A stretch of DNA of 54,910 nucleotides from Solirubrobacteraceae bacterium (GTDB lineage Bacteria > Actinomycetota > Thermoleophilia > Solirubrobacterales > Solirubrobacteraceae), in the NCBI GenBank assembly GCA_030681525.1, contig JAUXSD010000241.1, positions 1 to 54,910 on the forward strand. The letters run 5' to 3'. The translations under genes and the position numbers were made by a program. This document shows, one piece after another, positions 53,538-54,910 of the stretch. Position 1 is the stretch's first letter, and each line of letters opens with the position of its first letter. Under the pieces are notes generated by a model that saw only the letters and a list, made by a program, of their open reading frames with translations, was not told the DNA's origin and searched no databases.

Positions 53538-54218
53538 TCAGTCGCAGAGCGCTGTCGGGAACCGCGGCGCCGCCGCGCGAACTACCGCACAGTCAAGCGT
53601 CGATCCGTATGTGATGAGACGCCAGCGCGTGGCGTCTCGCCGCCACGCGGCGACGCGGGTGCGCTCGCAGGCTGACCGTCGTTCGGTCTGCTCCGGCAGG
53701 CAGTCGCTGAACGTGTAGCGCGTGCTGGCGAAGTTGCCGCGGCAGCGCATCCGATCGATGGCGAACCGCAGCTGATCGACGTCCTCGCGGAGGGCCGCGA
53801 CGAAGGCGCGCGAATCGCAGCGCCGCAGCCCGGAGTCCGGGGGCGGCTGCGCGCAGAGGCGATGGGCGGCGGCCTGGGCGGAGCAGACACCGGGCGCAAC
53901 GCGTTCGATCTCGCTCCAGAGCCCGCTGTGGTCCTCCCACAGCAACGTGGCCCGCGTCTCGCCCTGGCTGACGCGCGTCAGCGCGTACCCCGGTGCGCAC
54001 CGTAGCGTTCGAATCGACGCGGGCGCCCCCTGCGACGTCGAGCGCAGTTCTTGCAGCAGCGCAGGCTTCGTGCATGGTGCCTGTGCGGCGGCCGTGGTCT
54101 TCGCGTCCTGCCTCATGGCGGACGAGTCACCCGTGGTGGCGGTCGAGTCACGCGTTTCGCCGCAGCCTGCAACCAGCACCGCGGCTGCGAATGTCAGCAC
54201 GAATGCACCCCGCCCCAC
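53538..54218 (-). CDS. lipoprotein, unknown function
   Basis: A 226-residue lipoprotein: signal with lipobox LVAGC (Cys19), then a Ser/Thr/Ala-rich linker (about 20-48). The mature domain has eight or more cysteines (APCTKPALLQELR, IRTLRCAPGYALTRV, GVCSAQAAAHRLCAQPP, LRRCDSRAF, MRCRGNF, DCLPEQTERRSACERT), probably paired as disulfides. CAPGYAL is the type of small secreted domain seen in other Thermoleophilia. The GTG at 54218 starts the signal peptide directly. Function unknown. Confidence 0.72.
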   Translation of the reverse strand: MGRGAFVLTFAAAVLVAGCGETRDSTATTGDSSAMRQDAKTTAAAQAPCTKPALLQELRSTSQGAPASIRTLRCAPGYALTRVSQGETRATLLWEDHSGLWSEIERVAPGVCSAQAAAHRLCAQPPPDSGLRRCDSRAFVAALREDVDQLRFAIDRMRCRGNFASTRYTFSDCLPEQTERRSACERTRVAAWRRDATRWRLITYGSTLDCAVVRAAAPRFPTALCD

Positions 54219-54495: not shown

Positions 54496-54910
54496 TCAGC
54501 AGGTCTGGGTGTCGCCGGGTCCCGGGCCGGCGAGGGCCACGCAGGCGGGGGCGTTGGCGACCGCGAGGTTGTTGTCTGCACCGGCGGCCTGCGCGGTGGT
54601 GTCGGTGCCCTTGGCCTTGGCGGTGTTGCTGTCGCCGAAGCCTGCCGTCGCGCGGCTGGCGTCGCCGCTGGCCGTGGCGGTGTTGTTGTCGCCCTGGACT
54701 GCCGTGGCGGTGCTGTTGAGCCCGCTGGCCGTCGCGGTGTTGCTGTTGCCGTCGGTTGCGATGGCGACGGCGCTGTCGCCGCCGGCCGTGGCAGTGTTTC
54801 TGTTTCCACCGGCCGCCTGCGCGGTGCTGTCGGTGCCGCCGGCCCTGGCGGTGTTGCCGTTGCCGAAGCCTGCCGTCGCGCGGCTGCCGTCGCCGCTCGC
54901 CGTGGCGGTG
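54496..54910 (-). CDS. repetitive secreted protein, 5' end beyond the window
   Basis: The C-terminal 137 residues of a gene running off the right edge. The protein is a run of short G-x-x-N/S-T-A-x-A units (GNSNTATASGLNSTATAVQG, GDNNTATASGDASRATAGFG), the style of YadA-head and related beta-solenoids. A higher-order repeat is visible: about 35 residues starting TATASGD-x-SRATAGFG occur twice, 76 residues apart (54909 and 54681, reading leftward). It ends with a non-repetitive NAPACVALAGPGPGDTQTC, two cysteines. The terminator at 54445 follows. Codon use matches the genome. The number of repeats cannot be told. Confidence 0.72.
   Translation of the reverse strand, partial: TATASGDGSRATAGFGNGNTARAGGTDSTAQAAGGNRNTATAGGDSAVAIATDGNSNTATASGLNSTATAVQGDNNTATASGDASRATAGFGDSNTAKAKGTDTTAQAAGADNNLAVANAPACVALAGPGPGDTQTC

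Follow-up and report, generated by a model that had tools for sequence, protein, structure and literature searches.

The window, that is the whole stretch of 54,910 nucleotides analysed here, corresponds to contig G000:C235 in full; the draft genome to which it belongs comprises 4,556,627 bases in 352 contigs. At its right edge lies a minus-strand frame (54909-54496), free of stop codons up to the contig edge, whose 137 residues are rich in Asn/Thr/Ala/Gly repeats. Two cysteines, Cys123 and Cys137, close the translated frame (C-terminal letters ...GPGPGDTQTC, then the stop codon), in agreement with the original prediction of a repeat frame reaching the right edge and ending in a Cys-framed tail. 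The window holds the 3' end of the gene only, its 5' part being located beyond the right contig edge. The features of the region are as follows:

54496..54909, minus strand: 3' part of the gene of a putative secreted 19-residue-repeat protein (137 codons and stop), based on a GC3 of 0.91, an in-frame paralogue on contig C73 of the same genome, homologues and an AlphaFold2 model
54571..54855, minus strand: five complete 19-residue coils (residues 19-113), N-T-A-x-A-x-G-x-x / S-x-A-x-A-x-x-G-x-x, from register analysis and the 57-bp spacing
54805..54909, minus strand: first copy of a 35-residue block (residues 1-35), from self-comparison
54577..54681, minus strand: second copy of this block (residues 77-111), 76 residues or four coils later, from self-comparison
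54499..54570, minus strand: last strand and C-terminal tail with Cys123 and Cys137 (a putative disulfide cap) up to the protein end, from sequence and from similar tails in the relatives G137, G218 and G538 (absent in G134)
54770..54910, no strand assigned: 141 bases matching positions 1-141 of C73 (L004) without a difference, an assembly-graph overlap whose terminal 36-mer occurs in this genome only at both contig ends
54444..54476, minus strand: stem-loop with a 15-bp stem directly 3' of the stop codon, also present in C73 and weaker in C136, another contig of the genome

The GC content of the repeat frame by codon position (0.60/0.72/0.91) is of the type usual for coding sequences of GC-rich bacteria. 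The openness of the frame carries little weight, because most other frames at the locus are also stop-free or nearly so. The stem-loop following the gene (z of -3.33 in the window, -2.90 in C73 and -1.53 in C136) is terminator-like without a clear T run; promoter and terminator prediction on the minus strand of the window found neither a sigma-70-type promoter nor a T-run terminator. The repeat gene is followed on its own strand by a small ORF (53538-54218), whose product has several cysteines and a lipoprotein-like signal (VLVAGC).

The coils start at Asn 19, 38, 57, 76, 95 and 114, exactly 19 residues apart, and each divides into halves of 9 and 10 residues. This register replaces the unit of 7-8 residues that had been read from the sequence at first. 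N-T-A at positions 1-3, A5, G7, A12 and A14 are invariant in the five complete coils. At lags of 19 and 38 residues, self-identity reaches 0.52 and 0.54, respectively, as compared to a maximum of 0.358 in shuffled sequences (n=1000, lags 1-60): the repetition in this frame is beyond chance. At the DNA level, direct repeats are spaced by 57 bp, and TRF reports periods of 57 and 114. The 35-residue block does recur 76 residues (228 bp) apart as first noted, but "almost unchanged" was too strong a wording, the two copies sharing 28/35 amino acids (80%) and 94/105 nucleotides (90%). Growth of the gene by duplication of blocks, also part of the original prediction, is consistent with both the 57-bp register and the position of the best match, at 4x57 bp.

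AlphaFold2, run on the single sequence and as a single chain, predicts a solenoid with two strands per coil, in which the strands follow one another at alternating steps of 9 and 10 residues (mean pLDDT 88.5, pTM 0.82). As a control, this DNA was also translated in a frame of the other strand, where the same 57-bp repeat is present; folding of that chain yields helices with a pLDDT of 54.2 and a pTM of 0.28. According to a report on AlphaFold2, the program confidently over-predicts β-solenoids, with 32 of 78 random perfect repeats folded in this way, 16 of them with a pLDDT above 80 (PMC11795689). Unlike the perfect repeats described there, those of the window are imperfect; by analogy, the same bias could still act on them. 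Since the window repeats are not perfect and no solenoid came out of the control frame, the β-solenoid is regarded as the likely and best-supported fold of the repeat protein, and it is considered unproven in view of this bias. The sequence displays what is generally expected of a β-solenoid, namely a coil of fixed length (19 residues) with Ala at positions 3, 5, 12 and 14 in 5/5 complete coils. VIA-align against 124 chains ranks the β-helix of the Vag8 autotransporter at the top (Z 10.9, rmsd 2.0, 130 residues aligned), followed by a mixture of β-helical and other proteins with Z values of 8.2 and below. Foldseek returned no match at E <= 0.001 in the PDB, nor did the search of viral structure models, in which the weak rows include YadA-like phage proteins (E 0.02-0.03) and entries with "Curlin associated" names, e.g. 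A0A6J5M3R0. Solved structures sought by sequence gave nothing up to E 10 in one search and a single row at E 0.84 in another.

A DNA search of the genome itself identified the same sequence at C73:1-471, with 93% identity, and a partial copy on C136. The C73 copy is a second 3' end of 137 residues, in the same frame, with no indels over the 137 codons and 89% amino-acid identity; its C-terminus has the same ending as the window protein. Contig ends that agree over exactly 141 bases are the trace left at a branch by a de Bruijn assembler with k = 141, the largest default k of MEGAHIT. Because exactly 141 terminal bases are common to the window and C73, the common middle of the two genes was probably lost in the assembly as a collapsed repeat. 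Given this overlap (L004:1-141 / window 54770-54910), other repeat genes of the draft genome may also end at contig edges. C136 is a decayed copy, in which the repeats and the Cys tail lie in different frames; there, ~68 bp matching the upstream region of contig C50 are joined directly onto the repeats, a junction that looks as after an internal deletion. To note, a palindrome (TGACGCGCC...GGCGCGTCA) is found beside the C73 and C136 copies, at L004:608-644 and L005:2325-2361, and is absent from the window; it is possibly a dispersed intergenic hairpin element.

Using the N-terminal part of a relative, a 5' end was found at G000:C50:1-177 (minus strand), reading MTRNRGWALGVACLVVGGSAAPPAAAAQDMCVAAGGKVRYQSGTATCGASGWGSVALAR with a TTG start. 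This 59-residue fragment comprises a signal peptide, recognized by eye, and a Cys-pair segment, and the contig edge precedes any repeat. The genome thus provides a single 5' end (C50) as compared to two 3' ends (window and C73). C50 is assigned to the gene family because of the ~68 bp of upstream sequence that it has in common with C136, and the family layout likewise ties it to the window gene; the contigs themselves are not joined. Its signal peptide and N-terminal Cys pair appear in the same arrangement as in complete relatives from other genomes. The signal peptide that was to be looked for is present, as read by eye, in this fragment, and the relatives are signal-peptide proteins too. On L037:398-4094, reading by eye places a response regulator gene and its neighboring histidine kinase gene upstream of the C50 5' end, and ABC transporter genes at a greater distance.

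Past the 141 shared bases, the window and C73 show 27 differences in 274 bases. These are distributed 8/10/9 over the codon positions, a flat pattern with no third-position excess. The coil region beyond the shared edge contains 12 amino-acid changes, with 0 at positions 1, 3, 5, 7, 12 and 14, which represent 32% of the sites (simple binomial P 0.0099; P 0.049 for the four Ala positions alone), and two synonymous changes, at coil positions 3 and 14. It was from these very sequences that the scaffold positions had been chosen, so the signal does no more than suggest selection acting on them. For comparison, 14 coils of 18-19 residues were hand-picked from G137, G134 and G218, leaving out coils of 10, 16 and 20 residues, terminal coils and all G538 coils. 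Since the search pattern imposed Asn1 and Ala3, the information in these coils comes from the remaining positions alone; Thr occupies position 2 in 7/14 and position 4 in 6/14.

Relatives were searched for in overlapping sets of 61, 396, 399, 42, 35 and 121 genomes and were accepted after reading the frames. At most 8-10 candidates per genome were scored in the 396- and 399-genome searches, the tallies of which are lower bounds; G538 was found only in the 42-genome search, where all of its candidates were scored. At least four other genomes harbor an accepted relative (G137, G134, G218 and G538). The proteins of G137 (232 amino acids) and G538 assemble a signal peptide, an N-terminal Cys pair, the repeats and a Cys-pair tail, while that of G134 has the first three elements without the C-terminal pair. 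In G218, the module follows an extra N-terminal Cys-containing region with a sub-threshold TSP_3 match. The C-terminal Cys-pair tail is thus found in 3/4 relatives (G137, G218 and G538), and coil length is mostly 18-20 residues in G137, G134 and G218. No match was accepted among six genus mates or the rest of the bacterium's own family in the 61- and 121-genome searches. The distribution of the family hence appears patchy, compatible with either horizontal transfer or loss, and among bacteria the family seems to be rare, scattered and unnamed. The neighboring ORFs, read by eye, differ from locus to locus, with no conserved partner gene.

Plasmids and phages gave no match by tblastn, nor did viral contigs with an N-cap DNA pattern. 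Peptide patterns retrieved 231 stretches from genome contigs, none of which was confirmed, and the N-cap pattern had one unrelated match there, in the Acidobacteria contig L049, rejected as it is located inside a dehydrogenase-like frame. Several other candidates were set aside. The match in G011/L009 spans glutamine-synthetase-like and formate-dehydrogenase-like frames (by eye) and was treated as chance, and that in G000:C58 (E 0.03) spans an apparent histidine kinase and response regulator (by eye). L028 and L029 were rejected as low-complexity frames rich in Arg, and L057 as an apparent RTX-like secreted protein. G155 encodes a PE-domain protein (Pfam PE) with repeats of similar flavor and was left out of the family. 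A clear PE-family protein, a hallmark of mycobacteria, is carried by a genome listed in the same phylum, from which this phylum is read as Actinomycetota. At L015:958-2028 and L056:4581-5573, both on the minus strand, the PE domain (Pfam PE, E 8.7e-32) is accompanied by C-terminal repeats of the G-x-x-S-T-A-x-A type with a YadA-like flavor; the usual repeats of PE proteins are PGRS, unlike this type.

The Pfam scan of the window fragment was performed with an E-value limit of 10, HMMER filters dropping very weak matches. Its sole row is DUF3060 (PF11259; E 0.0043, 17.2 bits for a cut-off of 23.1, over 37 residues), a family for which the literature search listed one vaccine-design paper, and the C73 copy has no row at the same limit. 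In NCBIfam a single MARTX repeat row was obtained (E 1.8), in PHROGs only rows at E 0.15 and 0.28, and padloc found nothing. The 59-residue C50 fragment, which is short, has no Pfam row, including for the two-partner-secretion domain. The nearest Pfam family appears to be DUF6764 (PF20550), a weak likeness below its cut-off of 27 bits: G134 scores 26.4 and G538 13.8, with no row for the window or C50 fragments. Members of DUF6764 were found in at least 5 of 396 genomes, and in the genome of the window none was found among 8 of 18 candidates scored. In the literature searched, DUF6764 is named among rare unknown domains, in one count and one table. Profile comparison with this family gives a probability of 90 when signal peptides are included and 38.8 without them; with mature proteins, hhalign yields a score of 31.6 versus at most 16.5 in 50 column shuffles. 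The alignment of the C-cap is driven partly by low-complexity Ala/Gly. A distant kinship with DUF6764 through the N-cap is plausible, not established.

Several other explanations of the locus have to be weighed. A chance open frame in GC-rich DNA, with no gene at all, would account for the many stop-free frames of the locus, but the GC3 pattern, the paralogues, the homologues with signal peptides and the conservation of the scaffold make it almost negligible. It is unlikely, while deserving real consideration, that the protein is a largely disordered or loosely ordered, low-complexity Ala/Gly/Thr/Asn-rich secreted protein and its solenoid an AlphaFold2 artefact: the fragment has few large hydrophobic residues (LIVMFWY 10/137) and 26% Ala, Foldseek finds no significant match, and AlphaFold2 over-predicts β-solenoids for repeats, as described in PMC11795689. 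Opposed to these points are the exact 19-residue register, the alternating fixed Ala residues in the window and in the hand-picked coils from elsewhere, the paralogues without amino-acid change at scaffold positions, and the wrong-frame control, which yields no solenoid. In a curli-like functional amyloid, coils of separate molecules would stack end to end into matrix fibers. Two strands per coil with G-x-x-N/S turns recall the curlin layout, "Curlin associated" viral models are among the weak rows, and a CsgA fibril appears in VIA-align with Z 7.8, but with an rmsd of 7.1 over 92 residues. Such open-ended stacking would, however, be blocked by a Cys-pair cap at either end or at both, and curli-like polymerization is less likely on that account; moreover, there is no curlin Pfam row, and the neighboring ORFs contain no curli export genes (by eye). 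This alternative is judged improbable.

The T-A-T found on the Asn face in 3/5 complete coils could form, by stacking of T-x-T, the flat binding plane of an ice- or crystal-binding protein, and ice-binding proteins are present among the weak Foldseek rows. Those rows have E > 1, Arg and Lys interrupt the face, and T-x-T is not kept in the relatives, as judged from the Thr counts in the chosen coils, leaving this explanation with a slim chance. Slimmer still is that of an RTX-like calcium β-roll, for which speak the half coils of 9 and 10 residues, the Asp/Asn-rich turns and the MARTX repeat row; the GGxGxD motif is missing, the GGxGxDxUx nonapeptides are absent from the window fragment, and there is no RTX Pfam row. 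The head of a YadA-type trimeric autotransporter adhesin in a monoderm is just as doubtful. The A-x-A-x-G flavor is similar, and YadA-like phage proteins are among the weak viral fold matches mentioned above, but the 19-residue period and the Cys-pair layout differ, and membership is refuted on the profile and anchor tests: no YadA-head/Hep_Hag row is obtained for the window fragment up to the E-value limit of 10, and the intact C-terminus has no anchor. From the original prediction of a YadA-head-like β-solenoid, the solenoid remains likely, backed by AlphaFold2 and the control frame, while the attribution to YadA is abandoned on period, profile, anchor and Cys pairs.

The reading preferred here, and considered fairly probable, is that the gene of which the window contains the 3' half encodes a Sec-exported, Cys-capped solenoid rod of 19-residue coils, passive, extracellular and of variable length. 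In the predicted model, each coil would contribute two short parallel strands with Ala pointing inward, and the coils would stack into a thin rod. Caps closed by disulfides, as proposed from the sequence, would keep this rod soluble and stop edge-to-edge polymerization. Signal peptide and both Cys pairs occur together in relatives, and in the genome of the window they are split between C50 and the window. The rod may lengthen or shorten through recombination between the 57-bp coils. Neither the sequence nor the Pfam scan reveals a membrane anchor at the intact C-terminus. A sorting signal, which the original prediction had suggested seeking, is not found either: the chain stops after ...GDTQTC without an LPXTG-type motif or a hydrophobic tail, as does the C73 copy, and covalent wall attachment via a C-terminal motif is not indicated. 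Judging from this anatomy, the variable outward residues could bind wall polymers, surfaces or matrix. We infer that the protein most likely functions as a passive rod, its inner residues fixed and its outer ones variable, soluble or loosely associated with the wall, serving adhesion or the matrix.

To our knowledge, exported capped solenoid rods have rarely been described for single-membrane bacteria, and the literature search retrieved no related report on YadA-like heads or on secreted or disulfide-closed solenoids in actinobacteria. If fold and caps hold, protein design would gain a compact exported solenoid that follows a simple 19-residue code and brings its own end caps, and the protein could be an adhesin or a matrix protein in poorly studied lineages. 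Repeat genes of this type break draft assemblies and are consequently under-counted.

Among known systems, the head of YadA is a thin solenoid with A-x-A-x-G alternation, also seen in the window repeats, but its period is of ~14 residues instead of 19, and the window family adds Cys-pair end caps. Each repeat of curlin (CsgA) consists of two short strands, G and N occupying the turns, while the window family differs by its Cys-pair ends. The DUF6764 members examined resemble the family in having a signal peptide, Cys pairs at the N-terminus and near the C-terminus, and an Ala/Gly/Ser-rich alternation in between; they are shorter (~150-170 amino acids) and do not possess regular 19-residue N-T-A-x-A coils. 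The coil length has a precedent in the FHA (TpsA) rods, filamentous haemagglutinin being reportedly a rigid rod in which a motif of 19 residues is repeated (Makhov, 1994, by its title). FHA is a very long protein of Gram-negative two-partner secretion, whereas the relatives described here are short with Cys-pair ends, and the window has no haemagglutinin-repeat Pfam row. It is tentatively proposed, with less than even confidence, that these proteins are extracellular rods of monoderms and make up a separate family without a name: 19-residue solenoids capped by Cys pairs, scattered over distant lineages of one phylum, decaying and duplicated in the present genome and changing length by coil recombination. 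Such rods would correspond, in bacteria with a single membrane, to the passenger rods of autotransporters, without requiring an anchor in an outer membrane.
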